Shown piece by piece: positions 7,108-35,384 of a stretch of 64,000 bases of DNA. The stretch is taken from NCBI RefSeq assembly GCF_030732225.1, contig NZ_CP132230.1, forward strand, positions 1,979,001 to 2,043,000. The letters run 5' to 3'. Numbering within the stretch: the stretch's first letter is position 1; each line of letters begins with the position of its first letter. Origin of the DNA: Streptococcus iniae (GTDB lineage: Bacteria; Bacillota; Bacilli; Lactobacillales; Streptococcaceae). The notes under the pieces were generated by a model. It made no database searches, was not told where the DNA came from, and saw only the letters and a program-made list of their open reading frames with translations. Both the position numbers and the translations under genes were made by a program.

Positions 7108-8124
7108 ATGACAAAACAAAAAGTTGCAATCTTAGGCCCCGGTTCATGGGGGACCGCTCTTGCCCAAGTCCTTAACGACAATGGTCACGAGGTCCGTCTT
7201 TGGGGAAATATCCAAGAACAAATTGATGAAATTAATACAACACATAGAAATACCCGATACTTCAAAGAAGCTGTTCTTGATGAGAAAATTATCGCAACAA
7301 CTGATTTGAAAGTGGCATTGGCAGATGTTGACGCTGTCCTTTTTGTTGTCCCAACAAAGGTTACACGTCTTGTTGCCAAACAAATTGCAGACATCTTAGA
7401 TCATAAAGTTATTATGATGCATGCTTCAAAAGGCTTAGAACCGGGTAGTCACAAACGCCTATCAACCGTTATTTCTGAAGAAGTACCTGCTGATTTACGT
7501 AGTGATGTTGTGGTTGTTTCAGGCCCATCACACGCTGAAGAAACTATTGTTCGTGACATTACCCTTATTACCGCAGCATCAGCTGACCTAGAAGCGGCTA
7601 AATATGTCCAAGCACTTTTTAGCAATCATTACTTCCGTCTCTACACAAATAGTGATGTTATTGGTGTTGAAACAGCTGGAGCATTAAAAAATATTATTGC
7701 TGTTGGGGCCGGCGCCCTGCACGGACTTGGTTACGGGGACAATGCCAAAGCTGCTGTTATTACTCGTGGCTTAGCAGAAATCACGCGTCTAGGTGTTGAG
7801 TTAGGTGCAAACCCACTAACTTACAGTGGTTTATCTGGTGTGGGTGATTTGATTGTTACAGGAACTTCTATTCATTCACGTAACTGGCGTGCAGGTGATG
7901 CCCTAGGCCGTGGTGAAAAATTAGAAGACATCGAACGCAATATGGGTATGGTTATTGAGGGGATTTCTACAACTAAAGTTGCTTATGAAATTGCTCAAGA
8001 ACTTAATGTTTACATGCCTATTACAACAGCTATCTATAAAGTTATTTACGAAGGAATGGATGTCAAAGACAGTATTCTTGGGATGATGTCAAATGAATTC
8101 CGTTCTGAAAATGAATGGCATTAA
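7108..8124 (+). CDS. gpsA: NAD(P)H-dependent glycerol-3-phosphate dehydrogenase
   Basis: GpsA reduces dihydroxyacetone phosphate to sn-glycerol-3-phosphate for phospholipid and teichoic-acid synthesis. The 338-residue protein is of normal length. It begins with the nucleotide-binding [13 protein letters not shown], contains the family stretch [10 protein letters not shown] (about residue 110) and [18 protein letters not shown] around the substrate lysine region (about 198-215), and has [12 protein letters not shown] near residue 250. It is followed 27 bases later by galU, apparently in one transcript. The gpsA-galU pairing is seen in streptococci where hasC is not part of the hasAB operon. 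Confidence 0.95.
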
Positions 8125-8151
8125 TAAAAAACGATTATAATGGAGGCACAC

Positions 8152-9054
8152 ATGACCAAAGTAAGAAAAGCTATTATTCCCGCAGCAGGGCTAGGTACAC
8201 GTTTTTTACCAGCAACAAAAGCCTTAGCCAAAGAAATGTTACCTATCGTTGACAAACCTACTATTCAATTCATTGTCGAAGAAGCCCTAAAAGCTGGAAT
8301 TGAAGAAATCCTCATTGTTACAGGTAAGTCAAAACGTTCTATTGAAGACCATTTTGATTCAAACTTTGAATTAGAATATAACCTTAAAATCAAAGGCAAA
8401 AATGAACTCTTGAAATTAGTAGATGAAACAACATCTATTAACTTACACTTTATCCGCCAAAGTCACCCAAGAGGTCTTGGTGATGCCGTTTTACAAGCTA
8501 AAGCATTTGTTGGTAACGAACCCTTTGTTGTCATGCTTGGTGATGATTTAATGGATATTACAGATAATAAGGCAATTCCTTTGACCAAACAATTAATGGA
8601 TGACTACGAAAAAACACATGCATCAACCATTGCTGTTATGAAGGTTCCTCATGAAGAAGTTTCTTCTTACGGAGTCATTGCTCCTCAAGGTAAGGCTGTG
8701 AATGGACTTTACAGTGTGGACAACTTTGTTGAAAAACCAAAACCAGAAGATGCCCCAAGCGATCTTGCTATTATTGGCCGCTACCTTTTAACACCTGAAA
8801 TTTTTGATATTCTTGAAAAACAAGAACCAGGTGCGGGCAATGAGATCCAATTAACAGATGCTATTGATACCCTAAACAAAACACAACGTGTTTTTGCAAG
8901 AGAATTTACTGGCAGTCGCTATGATGTTGGCGATAAATTTGGATTTATGAAAACATCCATTGATTATGCTTTAAAACACAAACAAGTAAAAGATGATTTA
9001 GCACAATACATCATTAAACTTGGTAAAGAACTTGACAAACAAAACAAAAAATAA
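8152..9054 (+). CDS. galU: UTP--glucose-1-phosphate uridylyltransferase (GalU/HasC)
   Basis: The enzyme makes UDP-glucose from glucose-1-phosphate and UTP, feeding HasB and thus hyaluronan as well as other glycans. The 300-residue product begins [20 protein letters not shown], with the nucleotide-binding GLGTRFLP loop and [14 protein letters not shown], typical of the family, is near residue 193. I chose the ATG at 8152 because GGAGG sits seven bases upstream; an in-frame ATG at 8140 would overlap that ribosome site. It is probably co-transcribed with gpsA and ends before two hairpins. Confidence 0.95.
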
Positions 9055-9277: not shown

Positions 9278-9949
9278 TTAATGAAATGTATAAATTAGTC
9301 CTAAAATCATGATAAGTACATAGAGTGCTCCTGAAAAATAGCGCCGTCTTTTAGACCATCTAAATTGTGTTTGAGGATGTGGTAAGAAGACTGATAATAA
9401 TGCTCCTCCAACAACTCCTCCCAGGTGGCCTGCAAGCCCAACATTAGGCATAAAAAGATTAAAAACAAGATTTAAGATAATCAGTAGACGATAAGATTTT
9501 GCCAATTCTTTTAAAGCTGAGCTATTACTACCAGCACCCAGGTGCATAATAGCTGTAAACAAGCCAAATAAGGAGGTAGATGCTCCTGCTGCAACTATGT
9601 TTGGTGTAATAATTAACGTAAAAAGGTTTCCCATAATACCAGATAATAGGTAAATCACAAAAAACTGTTTGGAACCAAAAAGGCTTTCTGCTAATTGCCC
9701 CACAAAATAAAGGGTGAAAACATTAATCAAAAAATGATTCCAGCCAATATGGATAAAAATTGGTGTCACCAACCGCCAAAGTTCTTGAGGCATAGCCTTA
9801 ACGGCGTAACCAAACATTCCTCCAGATTGATAGATTGCTTCTGAGCTCTGTGCTAACGGGCCATAAAAAACTTGCATCAGCCCAAACACTAAGATACTTA
9901 CAATCAAAAAGAAAAGCGTTGCAGGACTTCTTCGTAAATCATATGTCAT
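9278..9949 (-). CDS. Rhomboid-family intramembrane serine protease
   Basis: A membrane protein of about 223 residues with six or seven hydrophobic segments. It shows the rhomboid features HIGWNHFLIN (oxyanion-site region), the catalytic-Ser motif GASTSLFG and the catalytic-His helix GHLGGVVGG. Rhomboids cleave substrate proteins within the membrane; the substrates are unknown here. The open frame extends to 9979, but a GAGG ribosome site points to the ATG at 9949 (alternatively 9955), leaving an 11-base overlap with the upstream cyclo-ligase gene. The order cyclo-ligase then rhomboid also occurs in Bacillus subtilis (yqgN, yqgP/gluP). Confidence 0.85.
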   Translation of the reverse strand: MTYDLRRSPATLFFLIVSILVFGLMQVFYGPLAQSSEAIYQSGGMFGYAVKAMPQELWRLVTPIFIHIGWNHFLINVFTLYFVGQLAESLFGSKQFFVIYLLSGIMGNLFTLIITPNIVAAGASTSLFGLFTAIMHLGAGSNSSALKELAKSYRLLIILNLVFNLFMPNVGLAGHLGGVVGGALLSVFLPHPQTQFRWSKRRRYFSGALYVLIMILGLIYTFH

Positions 9950-10472
9950 TAACATAAACCTCTTTAACAGCGATATCATGAGTTTCTTCCATAAACTCTA
10001 CCATTTGACAGTCAAAAACCGTACTGAAACTATCCCCTTTATAATCACTGAGGTAGTTATCATAGTAGCCTCCCCCATAACCAATACGATAACCTGCCTG
10101 GTTAAAAGCAAGCCCTGGAACATGGATAAGGTCAATCTCTGATTTAGCAACATGGATACCACTCTTTGGCTCTAGCACACCAAAAGAGGTTGTCACTAAC
10201 TGCTCAGGATCATATGCCATAAAAACCATCTCTCCCATAGGGTAAGTTTTAGGAATCACAAGCTTTTTACCGTCCTGAATAGCCTTATTAATGATCAAAC
10301 TTGTTTCGTATTCATGTGGTAAGGATAGATAAGTTGCCAGAACTTTTGCTTTTTTATAGGCTTGAGAATGTAAGACCATCTCTAATAGGGCTAAGGATTG
10401 CTCCCTTTTTGCTTTAGGCTCTAGTAATTTTAGCTTTGCTAGAACTTCTTGTCTAATCTCTTGTTTTGTCAT
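9939..10472 (-). CDS. 5-formyltetrahydrofolate cyclo-ligase family protein
   Basis: The enzyme converts 5-formyl-THF to 5,10-methenyl-THF with ATP, recycling the stable folate. The 177-residue product has the expected N-terminal helix with a basic patch, VFMAYDPEQLVTTSFGVLEP in the middle, and the family's C-terminal YRIGYGGGYYDNYL loop near residue 130 that binds nucleotide phosphate. It is translated together with the overlapping rhomboid gene. A TG-T-TAAAAT extended -10 lies shortly upstream of the start. The small RNA in the same intergenic region is on the opposite strand and diverges from this gene. Confidence 0.9.
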   Translation of the reverse strand: MTKQEIRQEVLAKLKLLEPKAKREQSLALLEMVLHSQAYKKAKVLATYLSLPHEYETSLIINKAIQDGKKLVIPKTYPMGEMVFMAYDPEQLVTTSFGVLEPKSGIHVAKSEIDLIHVPGLAFNQAGYRIGYGGGYYDNYLSDYKGDSFSTVFDCQMVEFMEETHDIAVKEVYVNDI

Positions 10473-10560
10473 AATGCTATTTTAACATAAATTCAACCCT
10501 GAAAATGCTAATCCGACGAATCTTAGCCAATAACTTTTTAAAAGCACTTCCCTAAAAACC

Positions 10561-10593
10561 TTTAAGGTTTCTTTAAGTAAGCACCTTTATACT
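10561..10593 (+). promoter_or_regulatory. CiaR-type site and promoter of a small RNA
   Basis: TTTAAG (10561-10566), a five-base spacer and TTTAAG (10572-10577) exactly match the direct-repeat consensus of the response regulator CiaR. TATACT (10588-10593) follows at ten bases, the spacing seen in CiaR-activated promoters of streptococcal csRNA genes. Confidence 0.8.
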
Positions 10594-10599
10594 ATAAGT

Positions 10600-10704
10600 A
10601 TCCTAAATAACGGTTCCCTAGACCGTTAGGGTAATTAAAATTTATTTTGATTACCCTTTTCATAAATCTCCTGGGCCTCCACTTTGTGGGGGTCCTCCCT
10701 TTTT
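10600..10704 (+). ncRNA. Putative cia-dependent small RNA (csRNA)
   Basis: No open frame lies downstream of the CiaR-type promoter. Instead there are two hairpins (AACGGT/ACCGTT at 10609-10627; AGGGTAAT/ATTACCCT at 10628-10657), an unpaired stretch with CTCCT (10668-10672), and a terminator stem GGGCCTCCAC/GTGGGGGTCC (10673-10695) running into CCCTTTTT. Streptococcal csRNAs have this plan: hairpin, CUCC-rich linker able to pair with ribosome sites, terminator. The gene points towards the 3' end of hasB, which is on the other strand. Ends are estimated from the -10 and T-run. Confidence 0.75.
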
Positions 10705-10716
10705 ATTACTAACATC

Positions 10717-10746
10717 AAAGGAGTTCAGCGCCTGCTGAACTCCTTT
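10717..10746 (-). terminator. Hairpin at the 3' end of hasB
   Basis: AAAGGAGTTCAGC (10717-10729) pairs perfectly with GCTGAACTCCTTT (10734-10746). It lies directly after the hasB stop. The following T content is weak in both directions, so it may act partly as a 3'-end stabiliser. Confidence 0.65.
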
Positions 10747-10750
10747 TGAA

Positions 10751-11956
10751 TTAATCTTTACCAAAAATATCTCTAGTATAGACTTTATGATCAACGTCTT
10801 CCAAAACCTGATCGTGACGATTTGAAACAATCAGTGTCGCTTCTGATTTAAATTGTTCCAAATCTGAGACAACTTCTAAATCAGTTTCTTCTTCAAGCAT
10901 TGGTTCATAAAGAATAACATTGACTTGATAACTTTTGATGATATCAATCACATCTTTGATTGCACTTTCTCTGAAGTTATCAGAGTTGCTTTTCATAATC
11001 AAACGGTAAATGCCTACTGTTAATTGCTCTTTGTCGACATTTTTTTGCTTCAAAGCATGTAAAATTTGTTTGGCAATATGTTCTTTACGTGTCTTATTAG
11101 ATTCCACAATTGCTGAGATTAATGATTGTGGGGTGTTTTTATAGTTAGCTAAGAGCTGCTTGGTATCTTTAGGCAAGCAGTAGCCACCATATCCAAATGA
11201 CGGGTTATTGTAGTGTTTCCCAATACGTTTATCGTGACAAACTCCTTCAATGACTTTTTCTGCATTCAGACCTGACATTTCCGCATAGGTATCTAATTCA
11301 TTAAAGTAAGAAACACGCATAGCCAAATAGGTATTAGCAAATAACTTAACAGCTTCAGCCTCCTCAGATCCCATAAATAAGACGGCCATATCATCATTGA
11401 TAGCTGCTTCTTTTAAAAGCGCCGCAAATTGCTCAGCCTGAGCAATCACATGGGCTGAGTCTCCCTCTTCGTAAGAAACAATAATACGGCTTGGGAAAAG
11501 GTTATCATAAAGAGCTTTTGATTCTCTTAAAAACTCTGGGCTAAAAATGATGCGATCTGTTTGAAATTTTTCTCTGACAGATTTGATAAATCCAAGAGGA
11601 ATTGTTGACTTAACAATAATTGTAGCCTGATTATTCAAGGATAAAACCTGTTCAATAACAGACTCAACATGGCTAGTATCAAAAAAGTCAATTTCACTAT
11701 CATAATTAGTTGGGGTTGCCACAATAACCAATTCAGCATTTTTGTAAGCATTTTCAGCATCAAGAGTTGCTGTAAGGTTTAGTGGGACATTTTTTAAATA
11801 ATGGTCAATATCATCGTCCTGGATGGGTGACAAACCTCGATTAATCATATCGACTTTTTCTTTGATAATATCAACAACAGTTACCTCATTGTGTTGTGAT
11901 AAAAGAACTGCTAATGATAATCCAACATATCCAGAACCTGCAACAGAAATTTTCAC
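10751..11956 (-). CDS. hasB: UDP-glucose 6-dehydrogenase (HasB)
   Basis: HasB oxidises UDP-glucose twice with NAD+ to UDP-glucuronate, one of the two hyaluronan precursors. The 401-residue protein has the N-terminal NAD-binding [14 protein letters not shown], the central FSPEFLRES segment and the catalytic cysteine in [16 protein letters not shown] (about residue 259). The start codon is GTG, 26 bases after hasA, preceded by AAGGAAG. It belongs to a hasA-hasB operon without hasC. The 3' end converges on the small RNA at 10600-10704. Confidence 0.95.
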
Positions 11957-11982
11957 TTCTTTTACTTCCTTTCTTCGAATAA

Positions 11983-13248
11983 TTAAGTAAGAGGTTCTTC
12001 TTCCTCTGCTTTACGAGTTCCCCAGTCAGCATTACGGATAGTAAATAGAGAATACAATCTTAGGGGTTGAAGCACAAACAAATGTAAGATACCGTAAATT
12101 GGTGATAACAAGAATGCCAATGGATGCTTAACCATATAATGGATGTTACGGCAAAGGGCAACTAAGAAAATCAAGGTTAAAAAGGCAAGTATTTTCAAGC
12201 CGTTAAATTCTTGTGCTTCACCAACAAACAAATCTAAAACAGAATACAACAACATGATAAACATTGAAACTTCCAATACTGTCCACACAGCTACAAGAGG
12301 GGTTTGCATCATTTTTTTGACAGAAATAATAGATTCACGGAAGAAAGATTTATTCCATCTATTTTGTTGTTTCAAGTAAGTTTTAAAATTAAATGGAACA
12401 TCTGTATCACAGCGTGCTGTTGACTGGTAAACCGTTTTTCCAAGGTCTGTCGCATAGTTCGTTAAACATCTGTCATCACCAATACTTACAGGTATTCCCA
12501 AGAAAGTTTGTGAGGTATAGCGTTCAATATTAGGGACAACAACCTCGCGACGGTAAACACTCAATGGCCCTGAACATACTAGGATATTCCCTGTTACAGA
12601 CTGGGCCGCACGCTCAACGCCAAAGGCGTTATCATAACGAATATCCGTTAAAATGGTTAATAAGTTGACATCACGGTTTCTGGCATTAAGGTGTCCTGTT
12701 GCAGCATAAACGTCTTTATCATTGAAAGACTTCAGCAATTCTTCTAATGCATCTGGATAGATGTAAGAATCTGAGTCAACCGTTAAAAAGACATCAGCAT
12801 CAGATCTGCTAAAGGCCCAAGCTTGCGCATGACGTTTCCCCACGTTTTCTGGTAGGCGATGAGCAATAACATTTGTAGCATCAGGATTATTTGCAATATA
12901 ATCCTCAATCATTTTAATACCAGTTTTATCGGCACTCCCATCATCCACAACAAAAATTTCTGCAATTGGATAGGTTTGACTTTGAACACTCTTCAACGTT
13001 TCAAGTAATGATTCACCATCCTCATTATAAGATGGAATAATTGCCGCTACTTTGTAGTTTCCAACTTTTCCTTTATAAGGACGATAGAAGAAGGATAGGG
13101 ACATTTTTAAGGTTAAGTAAATTAATAATAAGATTCCATAAGGTGTTAGGCTACCTTTTGAGCCAAATACATAGGTATTTAAGACAATCATCAATACCCA
13201 CAAAATAATAAATGTGGTAAAAGTGATTAGATTTTTCAGTTTTTCCAT
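11983..13248 (-). CDS. hasA: Hyaluronan synthase (HasA)
   Basis: HasA is the membrane processive glycosyltransferase that polymerises UDP-GlcUA and UDP-GlcNAc and extrudes the hyaluronan capsule. The 421-residue product has two N-terminal helices, a cytosolic family-2 transferase domain with VVDDGSAD (about 100), the DSDSY motif (about 160), SIGDDRCLT (about 258), and the polymer-binding QQNRWNKSF (about 292). C-terminal membrane helices end in the family's [12 protein letters not shown] tail. All catalytic motifs are intact. It starts after AAAGGAGG and is driven by its own promoter with a leader of about 120 bases. Confidence 0.97.
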
Positions 13249-19430: not shown

Positions 19431-22400
19431 TTAGCTTTCTTTCCTTTTCAATTCGACAAATCCAAGACCCAATAATAGTGTGCCAATCGCCGCTCCAATA
19501 AGTGATGTCGTATCACCTGTTCTTGGAAGGACTGGTTTTCCTGGGGTTTTTGGTGTCGGATGTTTTGGAGGGGTTTTGCCTGTAGGAGGCGTTTGAGGTT
19601 TTGGACCCTCTGGTTTTGGTGGAGTAACTTTTACAGTGTTTGTTTTCTTAGTCATGTCTTGACTTGGATCATGATTAAATTGAACCTCTGCAGTGTTTAA
19701 GATACCATCTTTGAAATGGACATCTTTCAATGCTGTAACATCTTTGATTTTAGCATAGATAATTGCAGAAACTGTATAGCCTTTAAGGGCTTCCATAGTA
19801 GCTTCATCACTAATATCAACTGTGACGGTTTGACCGTCTGCTGAGATAGTAACTTTGCCTCCAAGTGCCGTTAAAGCTTCTTTGGTTAATTCACCATTTT
19901 CAGTCACTTTTGCAAGTAGAGCTGTCTTAGCATCAACCTTATCTTTTTTCTCTTTTGCTTTATCAAATGCTTCTTGTGCTTTAGCAATAACTTTTTGTTG
20001 GTTATCCGCTTCAACTTTGATTTCAGCTGGAGTCTTAGCTTCGTTTAATGCTTTTGATGCTGCTTCTAAAGCTTGTTTTGCTTCATTTAATTGTCCTGTC
20101 AATGCTGCTAATTCTTTTTCTTGTGCTGCAATTTCTGCAGATTTATCAATTAGAACTTTGCCTCCATCAGATCCACTTGGCGCTGTAGAATCTGTTGTTG
20201 GAGCAGTATCGTCTGGAACTTTCAATTCAGCTAGTTTGCTTTGTACAGCTTTGACTTGTGTCTCAAGGCTAGCAACTTTAGCCTTAGCTTGAGTGACCTG
20301 TTCTTGACTTGCAGTGCCTGTTGCTTTTGTAATCTCCTCTAATTTAGCTTTAGCTTCATCTAAAGCTTTTTTAGCTTCCTGATAATCTTCGTCAATAAAG
20401 TTTGAAATCGCATCAGCTTGGCCAGTAATCTTAAGAGCAACACTTGTTACTTTAAGATTGTTATCTAACCTATCTTTAATCGTAATACTTGTGATATTCT
20501 GACGTTTTTCTTTTGTCATATCTTGTGGTACGACTGATTTAATATCAAATCTAAAGGCATCGCTAGCTAAACCTAAACGTAAGCTATATGTTGGATTGTC
20601 ACCATCTACTCCACTTACCGTCTTCACTGGTTTACCTGGTGTTGGTGGGTTAACTGGTGTTGGTGGTGTTTCACCTGGAGGGGTTACCGTTACAGGAACA
20701 GTATCTTTACTTCCATCAATACCATTGCTGTTTGTGAAGGCTAGATGTGCCGTATTTGGTACTTTAGAATCAGCATATTTGCTTAAGTCTGCATCTGTTT
20801 TAATGTTTGCTGGAATATAAACTTGGATTTGTTTATACCCTTTAAGTGCTGCAAAGTCTTTAACTGTTACAGTCACTTTATTGCCGTCAACAGATTTCAC
20901 AAATGTTGATTCTGGTAATTGGTAACCATCTACTAAAACAACAACTTCACCATTGATTGTTAAAACGTCCTCAAGGTTATCAGTGATGACAAAGTTTTTA
21001 TATGTTGAAATGTCATTTGGCAATGCCGCATTGACATTGTACATATAAGAGGTGTTACGTTCAATGTCAAGGTGTTCAAGTGTTTTGTTGATTTTCTTAT
21101 CAATTCCAGGCTCCGTTGGTGTTGGAGGTAACACTGGAACAGTATTTGAATCTTTAGTCATATTTGGATCATTATTGATGATGTAGTTAGCAGTATTTGG
21201 AATACTTGTTGGACCATTTACCATATAAGGTGTCAAGTCTGCACCATCTTTAACTTTAGCTGCAAATGTTACATGTATAGCTTTTCCTGCATATGATTTC
21301 ACTTGATCTTTTGTAAATGTAATAGTAACTTTTTGATCTTTAACAGTAATTTGTTCAGCAGGAACTGTTTTACCAGCTAGGGTTGCTTTGACAGCACCAT
21401 CAACTGTTAAGACATTTTCAAGTGTATCTGAAATGTCAAATGCAAATGCTCCTGTTGGCATGGTTGTATCAAGTGTGTATGTAAATACTTCTTGACGCTC
21501 TGCTAAATTAGCTTTATCAGCACCATTTACTTTCTTCTCAAGAGGAGGTGTATTTGGTGTTGGTGGAGTCACTGTTACTGGTGGCGTTGATGGCGTTTCT
21601 GTGTCAGGTGTTCCATCTACATGTGATTTATTTTGGTAAGTCACTTTTGCTGTATTTGGAATGTTTTGACGCGTTACACCCTCACGAATTTGAGCTGTAA
21701 TCACAAGTTCAACTTCCTTACCAGCAAGGTCACCTGCTTTAGCGAAGTCTTTCATTGTCGCTGTGACTTTTTGACCGTCTACGTTAACATCGAAGAAGTC
21801 TTTCGCGCTACCTTTAATAACTGGTGTTCCTTGGATTGCCAAGTCTTTATCTAAGGTATCAACGATAGTGAATGCTTTATACTTAGCGATATCTACTGGA
21901 AGAGTTGACTTAATGTTATAAGTATAATCTTTCTCAGTGTCAATGTCTAAGTGTGATTCTGTATCATTGATTTTCTTAGATACCGTTGGTGTTTCTCCCG
22001 GAGGAGTTACCGTTACCGGCGGAGTTGATGGTGTTTCTTCTGGCGGTGTATTTGTTCCTGGTGGTGGCGTTGTGCCATCTGTACCTGGTGTACCACTTAC
22101 AAAGTTACGGTTGTAGACTACCTTAGTGGTATTTGGAATGTTTTGACGTGTTACACCTGCTTTGATTTGTGCTGTAATCACAAGTTCAACTTCTTTACCA
22201 GCTAAGGCACCTGCTTTAACGAAGTCTTTCATTGTCGCTGTAACTTTTTGACCGTCTACTTTAACATCGAAGAAGTCTTTCGCGCTACCTTCAATAACTG
22301 GTTGACCTTGAACAACTAAATCACTATCAATGTCATCTACGATAACAAATGAGGTATATCTTGTAATATTGTTTGGAAGGACTGCCTTAATATTGTAAGT

Positions 22401-25400
22401 ATAGTCTTTCTCATTATCAACATCCAAGTGTTTTTCAGTCTTATTAATCAACTTCGTTACAGTTGGATTCTCGCCTGGAGGGGTCACTGTTACTGGTGGC
22501 GTTGGTGGGGTTTCTTCTGGCGGTGTATTTGTTCCTGGTGGTGGTGGCGTTGTGCCATCAGTTCCTGGAGTTCCGCTGATAAAGTTACGGTTGTAGACTA
22601 CCTTAGTGGTATTTGGAATGTTTTGACGAGTTACACCTGCTTTAATTTGAGCTGTAATCACAAGTTCAACTTCTTTACCAGCTAAGGCACCTGCTTTAGC
22701 GAAGTCTTTCATTGTCGCTGTAACTTTTTGACCGTCTACTTTAACATCGAAGAAGTCTTTCGCGCTACCTTCAATAACTGGTTGACCTTGGACAACTAAA
22801 TCACTATCAATGTCATCTACAATAACAAATGAGGTATATCTTGTGATATTGTTTGGAAGGACTGCCTTAATATTGTAAGTATAATCTTTCTCATTATCAA
22901 CATCCAAGTGTTTTTCAGTCTTATTAATCAACTTCGTTACAGTTGGGTTCTCGCCTGGAGGAGTCACTGTTACTGGTGGTGTTGATGGCGTTTCTGTGTC
23001 AGGTGTTCCATCTACATGTGATTTATTTTGGTAAGTCACTTTTGCTGTATTTGGAATGTTTTGACGCGTTACACCCTCACGAATTTGAGCTGTAATCACA
23101 AGTTCAACTTCTTTACCAGCAAGGGCACCTGCTTTAGCGAAGTCTTTCATTGTCGCTGTGACTTTTTGACCGTCTACGTTAACATCGAAGAAGTCTTTCG
23201 CGCTACCTTTAATAACTGGTGTTCCTTGGATTGCCAAGTCTTTATCTAAGGTATCAACGATAGTGAATGCTTTATACTTAGCGATATCTACTGGAAGAGT
23301 TGACTTAATGTTATAAGTATAATCTTTCTCAGTGTCAATGTCTAAGTGTGATTCTGTTTCATTGATTTTCTTAGATACCGTTGGTGTTTCTCCCGGAGGG
23401 GTAACTGTTACTGGTGGCGTTGGTGGGGTTTCTTCTGGCGGTGTATTTGTTCCTGGTGGTGGTGGCGTTGTGCCATCAGTTCCTGGAGTTCCGCTGATAA
23501 AGTTACGGTTGTAGACTACCTTAGTGGTATTTGGAATGTTTTGACGAGTGATACCTGCTTTAATTTGAGCTGTAATCACAAGTTCAACTTCCTTACCAGC
23601 AAGGGCACCTGCTTTAGCGAAGTCTTTCATTGTCGCTGTAACTTTTTGACCGTCTACTTTAACATCGAAGAAGTCTTTCGCGCTACCTTCAATAACTGGT
23701 TGACCTCGGACAACTAAATCACTATCAATGTCATCTACGATAACAAATGAGGTATATCTTGTGATATTGTTTGGAAGGACTGCCTTAATATTGTAAGTAT
23801 AATCTTTCTCATTATCAACATCCAAGTGTTTTTCAGTCTTATTAATCAACTTCGTTACAGTTGGGTTCTCGCCTGGAGGAGTTACGGTTACTGGTGGCGT
23901 TGGTGGCGTTGTCGTGGTTGTTCCTGGGTTACCATCTGCATCTACTTTATTAGTATACGTCATAGTAGCTTGGTTAGGAATGTTTTGACGCGTCTCACCA
24001 CTACGGATTTGAGCTGTAATCACAAGCTCAACTTCCTTACCAGCAAGGGCACCTGCTTTAGCGAAATCTTTCATTGTCGCTGTGACTTTTTGTCCGTCTA
24101 CGTTAACATCGAAGAATTTAGCAGCCTCACCTTTAATGATTGGTGTATTTTTGACATCAAGTTCTTTTGCAAGGGTATCATTTATCACAAATGTTTGATA
24201 AGAAGTGATATCACTTGGAAGACTTGTCTTAATATTGTAATTGTAATCCTTACCAGTATCAATATCTAAATGATCAATACTTTCATTAATCTTTTTAGTT
24301 AATGTTGGAGGAGTTACCGTTACTGGTGGGGTTGACGGTGTTTCACTGTCAGGAGTACCATCAGCATGGAACTGATTCTGATAAGTTACCTTAGCAACGT
24401 TTGGAACACCTTTTTCACCTTCGGCTAATTTAGCATCTTTATTAAGTTGCGCTGGAATGACCAATTCTACTGATTTGCTAGCATAAGCTGCTGCTGCTTT
24501 AAAGTCAGTAATCTTAGCAATTACTTTTTGTCCTGAAACGTCAACTGTAAAGAATTTAGCAGCCTCACCTTTAATTGTCGGTTTAACACCTTCTGCAAGA
24601 CTAAGTCGAACATCAAGTGTATCTACAATACTAAAGATTTTATACGTCGCAATATCTCTTGGAAGTGTCGCAGTAATATTATACGTGTAATTTGATTCTG
24701 GCTCAACAACAGCCTCTGTTAAGCTGCCATTAATAGTTTTCTCCACTGTTGGAACTTCACCTGGTGGGGTTACGGTTACTGGTGGCGTTGGCGGGGTCTC
24801 AAGGTCTGGAACATCCACTACATTAGAGTTATTGTAGATAACTTTAGTCGTATTTGGAATGCTTGCCCTTGTGATGCCATCATTAATTTTTGCAGTAATA
24901 ATTAGTTCTACTTCTTGATCAGCAAATGGTGCTGCCGCAGTAAAGTTATTGATGGCTGCAGTAATGATTTGCCCTTGTCCAGCAACTTTTTCAGGAACTG
25001 TTACAGTAAAGAAGCTACGCATTGCCTCATTTTTAATATCAGCTTTTATAACGGTAAGGTCTTTGTCAACGCTATCTGTGATTTCAAATTTTTTGAAACT
25101 TGCAATAGCCTTAGACAAGGTTGTCTTAATGTTATAAGTGTACTCCTTACCATTTTCAATAGCTAATTGATCACGATTTTCATTGATTTTCTTAGTTACT
25201 GTCGGTGGAGTCACTGTTACTGGTGGCGTTGGTGGGGTTGTTTTATTCGGTAGACCTTCTGAAGCTGGTTTATCATTGAAGCTAACTTCAGCAGTGTTTG
25301 GAATATTTGTCGTTACCACACCATCACGGATTTGTGACGTAATCACAAGTTCAACTTCTTGACCTGCATAAGCTTCTGCTGCTTTAAAGTCTGTGATTTT

Positions 25401-28400
25401 AGCGGTCACTTTTTGATCTGAAACCACAACCTCAAAGAATTTAGCGGCTTCTCCACTAATAACTGGTTTTCCTTGAATAGCAAGATCATTGTTTAAGGTG
25501 TCCTTAATTTCAAATGATGAATAATTTGCAATATCTGTCGGCAGTTGAGCTTTAATGTGGTACTTATAATCTGTCTTAGTTGGTGTGTCTAAGTGATCAA
25601 GTGTCTCATTAATCTTCTTAGTTAAGGTTGGAGGGACAACATTAACTGGCGGTGTTGGTGGGGTTTTAGTATCAGGATCGCTATCTACCGCAGATTTATT
25701 ACGATAGGTAACGATAGCTTGGTTAGGAATGCCAGTTTCACCTGCGGCTAACTTAGCATCCTTATTAATTTTAGCAGTGATAACTAATTCCACTTCTTTG
25801 CCTGCTAAAGCTTTGGCATCTGAGATGTTCTTCATCGTAGCTGTAACAGCTTGCCCATTCACTGCAACAGTGAAGAATTTAGCCATTTCTGGATCTTTAA
25901 TGAAGGTTGCTTTGGCATCTGAAGATACGGTCAATCGAGAATCAACATCATCTGAAATCACAAATTTCTGATATTTGGCAATGTCAACCGGAAGAACTGA
26001 CTTAACATTATAAGTATAAGTTGCTTCTGGCTCAAAGACTGCCGTGTTCAATGTGTCATTGATTTTCTTAGAAATTGTTGGGGTTTCACCTGGTGGGGTT
26101 ACTGTTACTGGTGGCGTTGGTGGAGTTGTTGTTTCAACAGCTGGATTTCCATCTACAGTAACATTATTACTATAAGTCACTGTTGATTGGTTTGGAATTT
26201 CTTGACGTGTAACTCCTTTATTGATTTGTGATGCAATCACAAGTTCAACTTCTACACCAGCATATTTTTTAGCCGCCTCAAAATTAGTTATTTTTGCTGT
26301 AACGGTTTGTGCTTTACCATCTTCTTTAGCACTTACTGTAATATCAAAGAATTTGGCCATTTCTGGATCTTTGATAGTAGCAGTTTTAGCTGTTAAATCT
26401 TTATCGATGGTATCGTTGATGGCAAACGTCTTATAATTTCCAATATCAGAAGGCAGAGCTGTCTTAATATTGTAATGATAAGCTTGCTCAGTTGGTGTAT
26501 CCAAGTGAAGAGATGACTCATTAATCATCTTAGTCAATGGTGGTGTTGTAACGGTTACTGTTGGTGACTCAACTGGAGTTCCAACAACACCTGTTTTATT
26601 TGTAAACTCAACACTTGCTTTATTATCAACTGTGACTGGTTTTTCTGGATAGGTTTGTGTTGCATCAAGTTTGACGTGAGCAGTAATCACAAGCTCCACA
26701 GTTTTATTAGCAAGGGCTTTAGCATTAACAAAATTCTTCATTGTTGCTGTAACTTTATTGTCAACAACTGTGATATCAAAGAATTGTGTCATATCAACAC
26801 CATCAATCTTAGCCATCACAGGTGTTCCTTGAATAGCAAGACGTGGGTCAATCGTATCTACAATCGCATAAGCTTTGTAAGTTGTAATATCCGTTGGCAA
26901 CTTACTTGTGACATTGTAAGTGTAGTTTGAATTAAAGGCAACCGTTGCAGATGTTAACTCTTTATTAATCTTCTTATCAACAGTAGGTGTTTCACCTGGA
27001 GGTGTTACTGTTACTGGTTGTGTTTCTTTATTCTTTTCTTCATTTACAGCATTAGTAAATACTAAGTTAGCTTTATTTTCAATGAGAAGTGTTGTCACCC
27101 CTTTATTGATTTGAGCTGGAATAATTAATGCAATTTGCTTACCGCTTAATGCTTCTTTAGCACGAGCTAGATAAGCTGTTCTTTCAGTCTCAGAAAGCGT
27201 CAACGAAATAGCATTGATATTTTTCATCGTTGCTGTGACTTTTTGACCTTCAACTGTAACATCGAAGAATTCTGCTGCCGCACCACTAATAACTGGTTTT
27301 TGAGTATCTGTATTAAGAGCTGTTAATTGACTATCTAGAGTATCAGTAATAACAAAGTTCTTATAGTTCAGAATATCTGTTGGCAAGTTAGACGTAATTT
27401 CATAGTTGTATGGCACTTCGTTATCAACATCTAAATGTCCAACTTTTGTCTCTGATCCATCTGTTTCTTTCTTAATAATTGTTTTATTAAGATCAGGATC
27501 TTGTTGAGGTGGGTTTACTGTTACAACAGGTGGCTTCATCACATGAACATCGTTGTTTGGTTTGACACCTGTTTTAATAGCTTCATTTGGAATTTGTGTA
27601 TCTGTTACACCAGCTTTAATCTGAGCAGGAATAATCAAACGAATTTTATACTTATCATGAAGTGTTTTCATCATGCCTTCAGGAACTGTTACAACAACTT
27701 TCTTAGTTGCTTTACCATCCACTGTGGCATCTTCAACAGATACTTTGAAATGCTCTTTCAAGTAGTCAGTATCAGTTTGGTCCATTGGTCTACCGTCATC
27801 TCGAACAGTCTCAACATATGGATTTTTTGTTTGAGATAATTGTAATCTTGGATCAAGAGTATCTTCTAATTTCCATGATTTGTATTCAAAAATATTTGAA
27901 GGCAATGTTGCATCTACAATATAATTGTAATCTTGCTCATTTTTAATAGTTAAGTCAGTAACTAAAGCCTTAGGTGTTGTTGTAGAACTTGGGTCTTCAA
28001 TTTTCTTGTCAATTTTTGATTCTGTTGGTGGCGGTGGTGTGACCGTAACCTTATTTGAATCTTGAGTAAACGTGTTATTAATTGAATAACTTGCTGTATT
28101 TGGAATCTCTGCATGGTTAATATCTGTACCATATTTTGCAGAGTGATTCTCTGTGACATAACGGTAGGGCGTTAAATCAGCTTCATTATTTACTTGCGCA
28201 AGGAACTCGATATTAACAGGTTTTCCTTCATTGCCTTGAATGTCTTTGGCCCCAAATGTAACAGTTACCACTTCACGTTCAACATTATTAACTACTTTTT
28301 TCTCAATTTTGAGAATGTCAGTTAACTCAGTTCCTGTGTAACGTTTTTCTCCAACAGTAACCAAAACTTCATTTGGTAGCGAGGTGAAGTGTAATACCGG

Positions 28401-31400
28401 CTCTAAAACATCTGTCACAACAAAGTCTTTAGCGTTATATGGCATACTTGTTGTTAAGCCATATTTGAAGACTTCATAACGTCCTGTTAAATCTGCGTGT
28501 AGTGTGTCATTAACAGTTTTCTTTAATTCTGGCTTATTGACTGGTGGTGTCACAGTAACCTTGTTAGACTCCACTTTTGGATTGTTATTGACTTGAACAA
28601 AGGCAGTATTTGGCGCTTTTGGCATTCCATTTTGATCTGAAATGTACTTCGTCAAGCTTGCAAACTGTTTAAATTTAGCTGTAAAGCTGAGGGTAATTTC
28701 CTTATCCGCGTATTGTTTAATTTGATCCTCTGTTAAGGACACTGAAATTTTTTGTTTATTAACATCTGTTTGATCCACACTAATTTGATTTGCTGGAATC
28801 TCAACTTGTGCTCCGTCAACAGTGATAAAAACATTCCTTGGATGTTGTGCAGTGACATTAGTAACCATTTCCATTTCTGGAATCAAGGTATCTTCAATTG
28901 TAAATGTTTGTGCACCTTTTGGAACAACTGATTTAACTTTATAGATATAAGGGTCATTCCAAACAGCTAATTCAATATCTTCACCAGCTTTATTAATGAC
29001 AGCTTTGTATGTTCCTTCCGTTACGCCATCAGCTTCACCAGCTTGACGTTCTGTAACAGTTGGTTCAACTGTTTTTGTCACTGGAGGAGGTGGGGTTACT
29101 GTAACTGGCGGTGTTGTTGCCGTTGGTTTGCCATTATAATTGATTGTTGCAATATTATCAATTGTACCTGTGGCACCACTTTTAACTTTAGCATTAACAA
29201 CCAAGTGAATCGGATCATTAGCTTTTACTGTTGCAAATGAAGTTGACTTCATGCGTGAGTAAATAACTTGTTTTCCATTTTCAACAACAACTTCTGTTGT
29301 GAAATCAGATGCATCTGTACCAACCATCTTCAGCGGACTGTTTGTTCCTTCAAAATTGACTAATTCGATACGATCATCTAATTCATCACGAATAACATAT
29401 TCTGTTGCCTTGTTAATATCGGACGGTAATGTCGCAAAAACATCATATGAGAATGTTTGACCATCAGCGCTGTTTAAATGAGTTGCTTCAGCATTAATTA
29501 GTTTTAGTGCTGTTGGTGTATTTGGCGACACTGTAACCTTATTGGATTCCAATTTTTCATTGTTCAAAAGAACATTGGCAGTATTTGGAACAAGAACTTT
29601 TCCGCTCTTATCAAGATATCTGTCTAATGAAGCACCTTCTTTGATACGAGCCTTAATGGCTAAGGTTAATACTGCAGGGCCTGTATTGCCTTGATTAGCT
29701 GCAGTAATCTCACGATTAATTCTTAGTAAGTCAGTACGTGTTAAACTTGTCTTTTGTAAATCCAAATAAACGCGGTCTCTAGTTTCACCATTAATGTTAA
29801 CTTGTTCAACTTTGATAAATTTTGTCAGCGACGGGATAGATACGCCGTTAACATAAACAAGGTCTTTACCTTCACTGTTTAATGTTCTTAACTCAGGTAC
29901 TAAAATATCTTCTATTGTGTATGAATCAAAAATACCTGGCCATGTTGAATTGATTCGGTAGTAGTAGTCATCCAATCGTGTAGATAAGTCTAAATGATTA
30001 CCACCTTTGACATTTGAGTCTTGAGACACTTCCTTAGTAACATCTGTTTTTAATGGTGGTGCTACATAAACTGCATTCGATCGACGCAGTTGGCTAGTTG
30101 GATCATCAACAGCTGTTGTGTTTCCATTCCAAATAATTGCCGCCTGGTTTAAGAAACCTAAACCATTGTTATCTTGAATCATTTTATAATACTCTGTAGC
30201 GTTATTTTCGAGAGTATATTGATCTTTGATGCGGGCTTTAATGATAAGTTTATAAGTTTTAAACTTGTGTCCACCATATTCACCCTCTTTTATGGTGTCA
30301 TTATTTGTACCTGGTAACTTTGGAACTTGTGCCACAACTGTTGTTGTTGCATTTCCTTTGGCATCTTTTGTCTCTTGTGTTGATACTGTAAAGTTTGTTA
30401 ACTTATTACCAGCCTGATCAGTAACGTAAGCATCTACATATTGCAAATGATAATTCAATTGGTCTGTAAACATAACATTTTGTTTCATTTCCAATGGAAT
30501 GTTATACATATTGTAATCAATTGTATAGGTAAATTCTTCTTTTTGATCGCTTAAACTTGCTGCATAGGATGGTCTATTAAGACCTAATGATGCTAACAAT
30601 GGGTCTTGGGCAAGATTTCCAGACTTCCCATCATCTCCATTTGTATCGTTACTAGAATCTTTATCTTTGACATCTTTTGTTGCACGTGGGTAACAATATT
30701 TAAGGTCTGTAACCTCTACCATGGTTGGTGTTGTCGACCCAATCTGAGCACTGGTATAGGTTCCAACCTTAAAGGTTCCAACAAGTTGACCAACTTCTCT
30801 ATTAACTTTTGTAGGGGTGTAGTTATCTGGCGGAACAGTCTCATTAGCCTCTGTTGTGCCAGCCGGTTCTTCCTTACGGTTTAATTTATAGTCAAAAGTG
30901 TTACTTCCTGGATTAAAGACACTTTCTGGAACAGCAATTGTGACCTTATTACCTTCTTGTTTTACAGTTCCACGAATTTGAGTTGTTGAATCAGTTACAG
31001 TCTCAACAACCTTTTTACCATTCAAAGTAATGGAATCAACGGTATATCCATCTGTAATGGTGAAATCACCTTTAACATCTTCTTTGACAAGGGCTGAGGT
31101 TACAGCTTTTAATATCTTATCTGAAAAGACATTAATATCAGATTCGTTAACATAGAAGGAGGCCTTTTCTCCAGTTGGAAGAATCTTGTCAGGTGAGGCC
31201 ACACTTTCAATAGCTTCATGGAAGACTGCTTGAATGGATCTTGGGTCGCCCGTCTGCATTGTTGTTTTTGAGTCTGGCGAGTCTAGACGGTTTAAATAAG
31301 CTGATCCATATTGTGCATTTCCTGTAAAAGCTTTAGTATCTTCCCAGAATCCTACAACAACAGTCGCATCATTACCAAGTTTCTGCTTCAGGTCAGTACC

Positions 31401-32594: not shown

Positions 32595-35384
32595 CTAGAA
32601 CCGTTTCTTAAAGACTTTTGCAACAGTTGCCAACATTCCTAAAAGCATTAAGCCTGATAATTCAAGTAATTGATTAGAATCTCCCGTTCGAGGTAATTCT
32701 TCTTTTGTCACTACTTGTTTTACGTCTTGCTTTTGTTTTGGAGTATCCAATTGAGTCTGATTCGATATCGGTGTATTTTTTACTGGGTTGCTTGGAGTTG
32801 GTTTTTCCATTGTCCCAACTTCAATAATTTCAGAAGTTGGTGCTTCAATCAGCTCTTCAGAAATCAATTCTCTTGAAATTTCGACACCATTTACTGTAAT
32901 GACAGTGTAAACACGTTTTATAACGCCTTGCTTACCCACCTGAAGTTGATTTTCTTTTCCTTTTTCTAGGTTAGAGTTTTCTACAACAATGCTTGAATAA
33001 TCAATTGCTTCAGTAACAATCTCTTCAGAAACAACTGTTACAACATCTGGTTGCTTAGTCCCTCGGAGGTATACTGCTTCTTGTCCTGCAACAATGTCTT
33101 TTTCACTGCTTGTTGTGATGACTTCAACTGAACTTGCATCTTTTAGTTGATAGCTAGTAACTACTGTTTTATGTCCTGCTTCTGCAGCTGTTTTTAGTTT
33201 AGTTTGACCAATTTCTAATGTTGGGTCATCTTCATAAACAACTGTGGTTGGTGCTGGAATAACAACCACTTCTTCTTTTGGCATTGTTCCAACTTTGATA
33301 ACTGTTGGAACCATTGCTGTGATGAGTTTTTCGGAACCAACATCTCGAACACCATTGGTTTCAGTGTAGCTTTGTTCTCCAGCTGTACCTATTTTAGTTG
33401 TTTGTTGTCCATAAGCTAGACTTGGATCTGCTTCGTAAACTGTGGTCACGGCGATTGCTTCCGTCTTAGTAACTGTCACTGGTACAACATCTGGCTGTTT
33501 GGTCCCTCGTAAGTATACTGCTTCTTGTCCTGCAACAATGTCTTTTTCACTGCTTGTTGTGATGACTTCAGCTGATGTGGCATCTTTTAATTGATAACTT
33601 GTAACAACTGTCTTGCTTCCTGCTACTGCTGCTGTTTTTAGTTTGGTTTGACCTATTTCTAATGTTGGGTCATCTTCATAAACAACTGTGGTTGATGCTG
33701 GAATTGCAACAACTTCTTCTTTTGGCATTGTCCCAACTTTTATAACTGTCGGAACCATTGCTGTGATGAGTTTTTCGGAACCAACATCTCGTACACCATT
33801 AGTTTCAGTGTAACTTTGTTCCCCTGCTGTACCTGTTTGAGTGATCTGTTGGCCGTAGGCTAGACTTGGATCTGCTTCGTAAACTGTGGTCACGGCGATT
33901 GCTTCCGTCTTAGTAACTGTCACTGGTACAACATCTGGCTGTTTGGTCCCTCGTAAGTATACTGCTTCTTGTCCTGCAACAATGTCTTTTTCACTGCTTG
34001 TTGTGATGACTTCAGCTGATGTGGCATCTTTTAATTGATAACTTGTAACAACTGTCTTGCTTCCTGCTACTGCTGCTGTTTTTAGTTTGGTTTGACCTAT
34101 TTCTAATGTTGGGTCATCTTCATAAACAACTGTGGTTGGTGCTGGAATTGCAACAACTTCTTCTTTTGGCATTGTCCCAACTTTTATAACTGTCGGAACC
34201 ATTGCTGTGATGAGTTTTTCGGAACCAACATCTCGTACACCATTAGTTTCAGTGTAACTTTGTTCCCCTGCTGTACCTGTTTGAGTGATCTGTTGGCCGT
34301 AGGCTAGACTTGGATCTGCTTCGTAAACTGTGGTCACGGCGATTGCTTCCGTCTTAGTAACTGTCACTGGTACAACATCTGGCTGTTTGGTCCCTCGTAA
34401 GTATACTGCTTCTTGTCCTGCAACAATGTCTTTTTCACTGCTTGTTGTAATGACTTCAGCTGATGTGGCATCTTTTAATTGATAACTTGTAACAACTGTC
34501 TTGCTTCCTGCTACTGCTGCTGTTTTTAGTTTAGTTTGACCAATTTCTAATGTTGGGTCATCTTCATAAACAACTGTGGTTGGTGCTGGAATAACAACCA
34601 CTTCTTCTTTTGGCATTGTCCCAACTTTTATAACTGTCGGAACCATTGCTGTGATGAGTTTTTCTGAACCAGCATCTCGTACACCATTAGTTTCAGTGTA
34701 ACTTTGTTCTCCTGCTGTACCTATTTTAGTTGTTTGTTGTCCATAAGCTAGACTTGGATCTGCTTCATAAACCTTTGTTACGGCAATTACTTCTGTCTTT
34801 GTAACTGTCACTGGAGTCGTACTTCCTCCATTAACAAGAGCACGGTATTTTTCAATTTTTTCTAAAAGCGTTGCCTTAGAAGCCTTCATATTCACAATGT
34901 TGTTTACAGCTGCAAAATCTGCAGCCGCATCATCGAACAGTTGCTTTGCATAAGCCACATCACCCTCATCAAGAAATAATTGGATATCATCTAGTTGTTG
35001 ATTAACCTGATTTATCAAATTTTGTTCGTTTAAGTCTGGAACATCTTCGTCTGCTGGAGGTTCATCCGCTGTAGCTGCTAGTGTTACTGGTGTCGATAAT
35101 TCTGTGCTTGGTTGAACAACTACTGGTGCTGCTACTGAGAAGGTAGCTTTTGGTGTCTCTAAGACCCTACTTGTCACTGTTGGTTCAACAGTTTTATTTG
35201 TTTCAGAAACGGTAGTAGTTTCTGGTGCTGTGACAAGTGGAGTCGTCGCTGTTAAGGTATCCTCTGCCTTAACTGTCTTTGTGGTAAATGACAGACTACC
35301 ATCATCAACTAAAAGCTGAGAAAGTACTGCTACTGACAACAATGACAAGAACGAAAGGTGCTTGACCTGTTTTTTGGTTCCCAT
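32595..35384 (-). CDS. LPXTG surface protein with nine G5-type domains
   Basis: A 929-residue wall protein. The signal sequence (about 1-41) ends near VKAED and has no YSIRK motif. A Thr/Val-rich stretch and a helical segment (about 135-190) precede four 148-residue units. Each unit holds two G5-like domains: one starting VTVTKTEAIAVTTVYEADPS and ending IKVGTMPKE, one starting APTTVVYEDDPTLEIGQT and ending VYLRGTKQPDV. A ninth G5-like domain ends IIEVGTMEK. The LPRTGD sortase signal is near residue 897. G5 domains bind N-acetylglucosamine-type glycans or zinc and often form adhesive stalks; no catalytic domain is attached. It is separated from the giant adhesin by 147 bases on the same strand, possibly co-expressed. 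RBS AAGGAG is good. Confidence 0.88.
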   Translation of the reverse strand: MGTKKQVKHLSFLSLLSVAVLSQLLVDDGSLSFTTKTVKAEDTLTATTPLVTAPETTTVSETNKTVEPTVTSRVLETPKATFSVAAPVVVQPSTELSTPVTLAATADEPPADEDVPDLNEQNLINQVNQQLDDIQLFLDEGDVAYAKQLFDDAAADFAAVNNIVNMKASKATLLEKIEKYRALVNGGSTTPVTVTKTEVIAVTKVYEADPSLAYGQQTTKIGTAGEQSYTETNGVRDAGSEKLITAMVPTVIKVGTMPKEEVVVIPAPTTVVYEDDPTLEIGQTKLKTAAVAGSKTVVTSYQLKDATSAEVITTSSEKDIVAGQEAVYLRGTKQPDVVPVTVTKTEAIAVTTVYEADPSLAYGQQITQTGTAGEQSYTETNGVRDVGSEKLITAMVPTVIKVGTMPKEEVVAIPAPTTVVYEDDPTLEIGQTKLKTAAVAGSKTVVTSYQLKDATSAEVITTSSEKDIVAGQEAVYLRGTKQPDVVPVTVTKTEAIAVTTVYEADPSLAYGQQITQTGTAGEQSYTETNGVRDVGSEKLITAMVPTVIKVGTMPKEEVVAIPASTTVVYEDDPTLEIGQTKLKTAAVAGSKTVVTSYQLKDATSAEVITTSSEKDIVAGQEAVYLRGTKQPDVVPVTVTKTEAIAVTTVYEADPSLAYGQQTTKIGTAGEQSYTETNGVRDVGSEKLITAMVPTVIKVGTMPKEEVVVIPAPTTVVYEDDPTLEIGQTKLKTAAEAGHKTVVTSYQLKDASSVEVITTSSEKDIVAGQEAVYLRGTKQPDVVTVVSEEIVTEAIDYSSIVVENSNLEKGKENQLQVGKQGVIKRVYTVITVNGVEISRELISEELIEAPTSEIIEVGTMEKPTPSNPVKNTPISNQTQLDTPKQKQDVKQVVTKEELPRTGDSNQLLELSGLMLLGMLATVAKVFKKRF
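33039..34814 (-). repeat. Four 444-bp tandem repeats (two G5-like domains each)
   Basis: Units are 34814-34371, 34370-33927, 33926-33483 and 33482-33039, aligned on the PVTVTKTE codons. The central two are nearly identical and the outer ones carry more differences. The exact 444-base periodicity keeps the reading frame, so copy number can change without frameshift. Confidence 0.85.

Follow-up and report, generated by a model that had tools for sequence, protein, structure and literature searches.

A putative CiaR-activated small RNA gene beside hasB of Streptococcus iniae, probably a positional homologue of csRNA15

A 64,000-nucleotide stretch of the Streptococcus iniae genome (hereafter the window) very probably carries, between a cyclo-ligase gene and hasB, a gene for a CiaR-activated, trans-acting small RNA (csRNA), a positional homologue of csRNA15 inherited with the cyclo-ligase block, whose place next to hasB is incidental. 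The elements on which this reading is built, namely the CiaR box, the −10 element, their spacing, the covarying stems, the linker, the neighbourhood and the CiaR gene, were all observed. By analogy with published relatives we infer that the RNA would be expressed, would depend on CiaR and would act in trans: CiaR would bind the TTTAAG repeat and turn on a short RNA, whose linker UUUUCAUAAAUCUCC would then cover the Shine-Dalgarno (SD) sequence and the AUG of target mRNAs.

Results

Parts of the predicted csRNA gene

The gene lies on the plus strand and is made of the following parts (Marx 2010 is PMC3091779):

10561..10577, +, CiaR box TTTAAG-N5-TTTAAG, here TTTAAG-GTTTC-TTTAAG (from the sequence)
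10588..10593, +, −10 element TATACT (from the sequence), exactly 10 nt from the box, the distance used as a search criterion in Marx 2010
10600..10747, +, predicted csRNA, about 148 nt with an end at hairpin 4, or 105 nt with an end at 10704
10600..10608, +, conserved csRNA stretch AUCCUAAAU (from the sequence)
10608..10628 (about), +, hairpin 1 (fold)
10629..10656 (about), +, hairpin 2 (fold)
10657..10672 (about), +, linker CUUUUCAUAAAUCUCC, presumed to do the pairing through its anti-AUG (CAU) and anti-SD (CUCC) (fold)
10673..10695, +, hairpin 3, terminator-like, with the tail TCCCTTTTTA (terminator scan)
10715..10749 (about), +, hairpin 4 (fold), where the csRNA probably has its true end and hasB may end as well

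The start at 10600 was set by the published rule, 7 nt past the −10 element (PMC3091779). The original prediction had described a perfect repeat with its −10 element, a region without any open frame, and the csRNA plan of two hairpins, CTCC linker and terminator, and on these points it holds. Both promoter elements are perfect at their 10 nt spacing. On the csRNA strand, the only frames of at least 20 codons between 10590 and 10752 are two of 21 codons, each with a TTG start. The two hairpins, the linker, the terminator-like hairpin and the UCCUAAA stretch are all present, and CiaR is encoded in the same genome (L150), with the recognition helix VVEVYVSKIRKKL, as in Table 1 of Marx 2010.

Folding of the predicted RNA (10597-10705) gave −38.6 kcal/mol, against −22.2 (sd 3.2) for shuffled sequences, none of the 200 being as low (z −5.1); z was −8.6 for the longer fold of 151 nt. 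The linker is the exact complement of GGAG-AUUU-AUG-AAAA, and its CAU and CUCC are unpaired in the 109-nt fold, with 5 bp paired in the 151-nt fold. The transcript of about 105 nt that had been foreseen is probably too short: the 3′ end is probably at hairpin 4 (about 148 nt) rather than at 10704, and TTTT stands at 10744-10747, within the region of that hairpin. As scored by script, a second 3′ hairpin with a T-rich tail was present in 24 of the 30 copies of the RNA described below, the window's included, while 5 apparently stop at the first hairpin and 1 has neither.

For a csRNA, Marx 2010 (PMC3091779) asks for a box with at most one mismatch per half and the G kept, a −10 element with at most two mismatches ten bases past it, an intergenic place with a terminator within 250 nt, a UCCUAAA-type stretch, and CiaR in the genome. 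In the window, the box at 10561-10577 is perfect, TATACT occupies the −10 place, the RNA is intergenic and has a terminator in that range, CiaR is present, and AUCCUAAAU fits [A/C]UCCUAAA[A/C] save for its last position, one described as less conserved; stretches like it occur in all but four csRNAs of that study. With pneumococcal csRNA1-5 (Ccn, Rfam RF02379), the window RNA shares a CiaR promoter, stem-loops, an unpaired anti-SD/anti-AUG stretch and a terminator (PMC3091779). It differs from them in that two hairpins precede its linker and probably two follow, and it scores 18 bits with the RF02379 csRNA model, under the Rfam cut-off of 57. No Rfam family reached its cut-off for the window RNA or for six other loci.

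The CiaR box alone is at chance level. Perfect boxes number 3 in the 2,175,659-base (2.18 Mb) genome, versus 2 for the reversed control pattern, and box plus −10 element, with up to 3 mismatches, matched once in the window versus 0.51 expected, the match itself being perfect. What raises the csRNA gene above chance is that the whole arrangement is conserved, with covarying stems, in 30 of the 197 genomes. Among the 33 box loci fetched (two of them the same place), at least 4 places carry the remaining csRNA features: the window, L009, L011 and L013; the published average is four csRNAs per species (PMC3091779). The csRNA-like genes elsewhere in the genome lie at 1501-1607 of L009, 1501-1607 of L011 and about 1414-1516 of L013 (reverse strand), each with box, −10 element and UCCUAAA stretch. 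Separately, CiaR-box-like sites were seen 5′ of protein frames at about 1501 of L005 and L008, possible further CiaR targets; judged by eye, one frame is lipoprotein-like and the other membrane-protein-like.

Conservation and covariation in the genus

A blastn search with 10541-10710 in 59 genomes matched only 9, the window's own included, and some of these by the promoter part alone, so that a covariance model was needed. The alignment was seeded with 15 loci beside cyclo-ligase genes, each with the box and TTTTCATAAATCTC, and the resulting model, R1, was run over 197 genomes of the genus with filters that miss weak matches. Some match at E ≤0.001 was found in 71 of the 197 genomes, many of the weaker matches being shorter. 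Copies of at least 63 bits, a cut of our own choice that admits the best 30 loci, were found in 30, one in each and the window's genome included; the next three below that cut (G181, G153 and G075, 46.6-51.1 bits) were left out of the counts. The region 10480-10760 had no match among phage and plasmid sequences. The cyclo-ligase search of wider genome contigs returned 47 loci with a best identity of 38%, none of them titled Streptococcus.

The stems covary. In the unfitted alignment of 15 copies, 84.4% of the cells were paired, versus 52.9% and 58.0% when partners were shifted by one column, and 18 of 27 pairs showed changes on both sides. For the 30 copies (28 distinct), which were fitted to the model, the value was 92.8% versus 53.3% and 58.0%, with double changes in 23 of the 27 pairs. 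Broken down by stem over the 28 distinct copies, paired cells and pairs with two-sided changes amounted to 93.9% and 5 of 7 for hairpin 1, 87.5% and 9 of 11 for hairpin 2, and 98.4% and 9 of 9 for hairpin 3.

The linker sequence UUUUCAUAAAUCUCC is exact in 29 of the 30 copies, including all 15 outside the model-building set, and G216 differs by one base. That the linker hardly varies is what one would expect of an RNA that blocks translation starts in trans, and published csRNAs carry anti-SD/anti-AUG stretches thought to work in this way (PMC3091779). Conservation of the TTTAAG repeats in relatives, which had been proposed as a test of the gene, was found as well: 21 copies have a perfect box and 8 have a box with one mismatch, so that 29 of the 30 have at most one, while in G213 no box was detected.

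The csRNA and its neighbours

Around the csRNA, the window holds the following genes:

7108-8124, gpsA-like frame (resemblance only), ahead of the galU/hasC-type gene
8140..9054, +, nucleotidyltransferase gene of the galU/hasC type (Pfam PF00483), which we take to be galU/hasC
9278..9979, −, rhomboid-family gene (Pfam PF01694)
9939..10472, −, 5-formyltetrahydrofolate cyclo-ligase gene, the usual neighbour of the csRNA (Pfam PF01812; positions in relatives)
10751..11956, −, hasB, UDP-glucose dehydrogenase, convergent with the csRNA (Pfam PF03721, PF00984, PF03720)
11983..13248, −, hyaluronan synthase gene, presumably hasA, a name given from context (Pfam glycosyltransferase family 2 models)

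Beyond hasA come an M20 peptidase gene and then a 232-aa frame, both on the minus strand. Three more genes of the minus strand stand out farther along the window. A single frame of 4338 codons (19431-32447), with an antigen I/II C2-type domain and an LPXTG anchor motif, encodes a giant surface protein; it is adjoined by a 929-aa protein with nine G5-domain stretches (32595-35384), and a streptococcal histidine triad protein of 841 aa is found at 38046-40571.

The csRNA stands divergently beside the cyclo-ligase gene in 29 of the 30 genomes, with one extra gene between them in 4, and it points away from that gene in all 27 genomes with coordinates. The distance between csRNA and cyclo-ligase match is 95-311 bp in 23 genomes and 1.49-1.50 kb in 4; the wide gap is taken up by a frame of 451-459 codons, which encodes a MatE protein in the single genome scanned. 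Because 15 of the 30 copies had been found by searching beside cyclo-ligase genes, an unbiased count has to be taken from the 15 that only the model found: 14 of these are beside the cyclo-ligase gene, G149 and G213 among them (same neighbourhood by tblastn), and the exception is G067.

The gene hasB is next to the csRNA in only 3 of the 30 genomes: the window's, G100 and G015. In G015, hasB (L130, 2275-3479) consists of two frames of 189 and 210 codons, either a broken gene or a draft-assembly error. G216 and G200 share the MatE-type order; there the csRNA is immediately followed by frames of 375-376 and 232-234 codons, which resemble in size the two frames that come after hasA in the window and G100. 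Comparing the two orders, hasAB stands between the csRNA and this pair of frames in some species only. In the S. equi-like genome G177, hasA and hasB immediately precede galU and thus flank the block at its opposite end (L236), and the csRNA place (L096, about 2189) has a box without the linker. In S. uberis 0140J, hasC lies some 3 kb downstream of hasB and is oppositely oriented (PMC2657157), as in G100 and G015; the window differs by a shorter interval, lacking a frame of about 450 codons between cyclo-ligase gene and csRNA. The name galU/hasC fits this S. uberis arrangement. It thus looks as if the csRNA is inherited together with galU, rhomboid and cyclo-ligase as one block, next to which hasAB may or may not stand.

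Relation to csRNA15

G067, the one model-found copy away from the cyclo-ligase gene, is in what looks like an S. pyogenes genome. The copy occupies 195540-195646 of the minus strand and, measured to the second hairpin, has a predicted size of 142 nt; next on that strand comes a gene whose product has HTH_Mga and Mga domains. In S. pyogenes MGAS315, csRNA15 has 142 nt and lies on the minus strand at 188268-188127 (PMC3091779), and it is followed by rivR (PMC6431027); Marx 2010 equates csRNA15 with SR195750, a transcript of MGAS2221, and calls it CiaR-controlled (PMC3091779). Since the G067 copy agrees with csRNA15-rivR in size, minus strand and a following Mga-type gene, we conclude that the window RNA is the positional homologue of csRNA15, by way of this S. 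pyogenes-like genome. One covariance model spans both RNAs end to end (92 bits for the window, with a match at 10601-10705, and 110.3 for the G067 copy, L173), and rhomboid and galU genes are shared beyond them, a result which rests on G067 being S. pyogenes.

As seen in G067, csRNA15/SR195750 has in common with the window RNA the box, the −10 element, the UCCUAAA stretch, two hairpins, the linker CUUUUCAUAAAUCUCC and two 3′ hairpins, with rhomboid and galU nearby. It differs by the transposase between csRNA and rhomboid, by the Mga-type gene downstream, and by hasB being far away, near a contig end. Identity to L173 is 70.4% over the modelled part. In the published classification, which sorts csRNA genes into 40 types by sequence identity, one type means at least 80% identity and insertions or deletions of less than three nt (PMC3091779); under the 80% rule the window RNA would, on its sequence, be a type of its own rather than csRNA15.

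By size alone, csRNA32 of S. uberis (140 nt), csRNA10 of S. agalactiae (145 nt) and csRNA38 of S. gallolyticus (138 nt) would be possible members of the family (PMC3091779). Srn024/csRNA11 of S. agalactiae, likened here by its description alone, pairs with sap mRNA up to the AUG region of the target, but does so through about nt 2-24 of the RNA (PMC9603419).

Pairing of the linker with translation starts

The original prediction had proposed the hasA and hasB ribosome sites as partners of the CTCC linker, together with a target ranking over start regions. We ranked 378 start regions, from the window and 399 kb of the 2.18 Mb genome, a non-random sample: among the 20 stretches taken, the positions of three had been chosen so as to include candidate genes, and one had been shifted so that it ended where the window begins or ends. 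The duplex energies take no account of accessibility. The ranking makes no case for hasAB: hasA, at −12.5, is ordinary (85th of 378, or 81st with ties counted upward), and hasB, at −6.8, is poor (326th of 378). With a slightly longer linker, in the window alone, hasA ranked 9 of 41 and hasB 39 of 41. In G015 and G100, hasA gave −9.2 each and would rank 229 and 229, and hasB gave −6.3 and −6.1 and would rank 338 and 342, respectively.

The linker complement GGAGATTTATGAAAA, with up to 2 mismatches, had 20 matches in the genome, csRNA genes included, versus 12 for the reversed control, a weak excess. At 5 of the 20, a frame of more than 100 codons starts at the matched ATG, and pepN is among them. 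Across genomes, the pepN start was matched in 10 of 23 among the matches listed. A duplex of −13 or below was obtained for pepN in 29 of 30 genomes (mean −15.25), for rhomboid in 10 of 25, for proC in 6 of 29 and for the cyclo-ligase gene in 0 of 25, both counts out of 25 reflecting 5 of the 30 loci where these genes are outside the fetched flank; the starts were picked by script, and several of those of proC look wrong. The same threshold was passed by 62 of 280 genes with an SD in the window's own genome, where pepN ranks 21 of 378. With G170 left out, 0 of 20000 random sets matched pepN, which means little, as pepN was selected once the matches were known and the genomes, being related, do not count as independent. 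We consider pepN, one of four genes chosen post hoc for comparison across genomes, as a lead to a possible target. A literature search for PepN, csRNA and CiaR returned one review (PMC7939560), whose available portions hold no such link.

Two other frame starts resembling the linker complement were seen at about 1501 of L161 (zinc-binding-lipoprotein-like) and of L169 (pullulanase-like), both named by eye. Pneumococcal csRNAs are reported to affect zinc resistance (PMC11478796), and pullulanase mRNA is a target of Srn024 (PMC9603419).

Discussion

It had been proposed that the RNA is aimed at the capsule, controlling hasB or hasA either by antisense contact at the hasB 3′ end or through the CTCC linker on ribosome sites. 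The hasA GGAGG can indeed pair with CUCC, and the csRNA and hasB are convergent. A csRNA end within hairpin 4 (10747) would lie 3 nt before the hasB stop codon (10751-10753), and the hairpin may be common to both genes; the scan of 10400-12000 detected no terminator-like site on the strand of hasB, so that hasB transcripts might extend through the csRNA and contact it. No overlap with the hasB coding sequence is predicted, even for the farthest end; the untranslated ends may overlap. The notion that the csRNA and hasB transcripts are unable to meet was dropped on the evidence for a longer csRNA (second 3′ hairpin). Antisense contact at the hasB 3′ end is possible but unsupported. Against capsule control as a whole speak the 3 genomes of 30 in which hasB is the next gene, the ranks of hasA and hasB, weaker still in G015 and G100, and the literature, in which our search found no paper combining hasA, hasB, CiaR, sRNA and capsule, nor, in a non-exhaustive search, any csRNA link to hasA or hasB. 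We therefore regard capsule control as improbable. On the sequence comparisons, the csRNA seems to adjoin hasB simply since a few species carry hasAB next to that block.

A leader or attenuator of a downstream gene on the same strand is very improbable here. It is suggested by S. pyogenes, where csRNA15 and rivR have been depicted as a single transcription unit (PMC6431027), and a gene with Mga-type domains follows the csRNA on the same strand in G067 and G113; the long frames downstream in the window (hasB, hasA, the M20 peptidase and the 232-aa gene), however, are all on the opposite strand. Nor do we give more than a minimal chance to a silent remnant or a mere terminator cluster between convergent genes. 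Incomplete csRNA remnants are mentioned in the literature (PMC3091779), and the S. equi-like G177, with its box and no linker, could be one, but the window has a perfect box, exact spacing, intact stems and an exact linker, in a genome with CiaR. A trans-acting csRNA inherited with the cyclo-ligase block accounts best for these features.

A wider proposal, which we hold to be rather unlikely as a whole, is that a single vertically inherited csRNA family, split into numbered types and anchored to the cyclo-ligase gene in part of the genus, represses translation of aminopeptidase PepN, as a conserved target, through a linker spanning SD, four-base spacer and AUG, and that, where it lies beside hasAB, the two share a terminator hairpin with possible mutual interference at their 3′ ends.

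The capsule genes seem to be optional neighbours here, which cautions against inferring function from neighbourhood. Shared place and covariation join the copies of 30 genomes into one family whose pairing stretch is nearly constant, and sorting csRNAs by identity can conceal such descent. With one family across 30 genomes, targets can be searched for by conservation, and not in a single genome.
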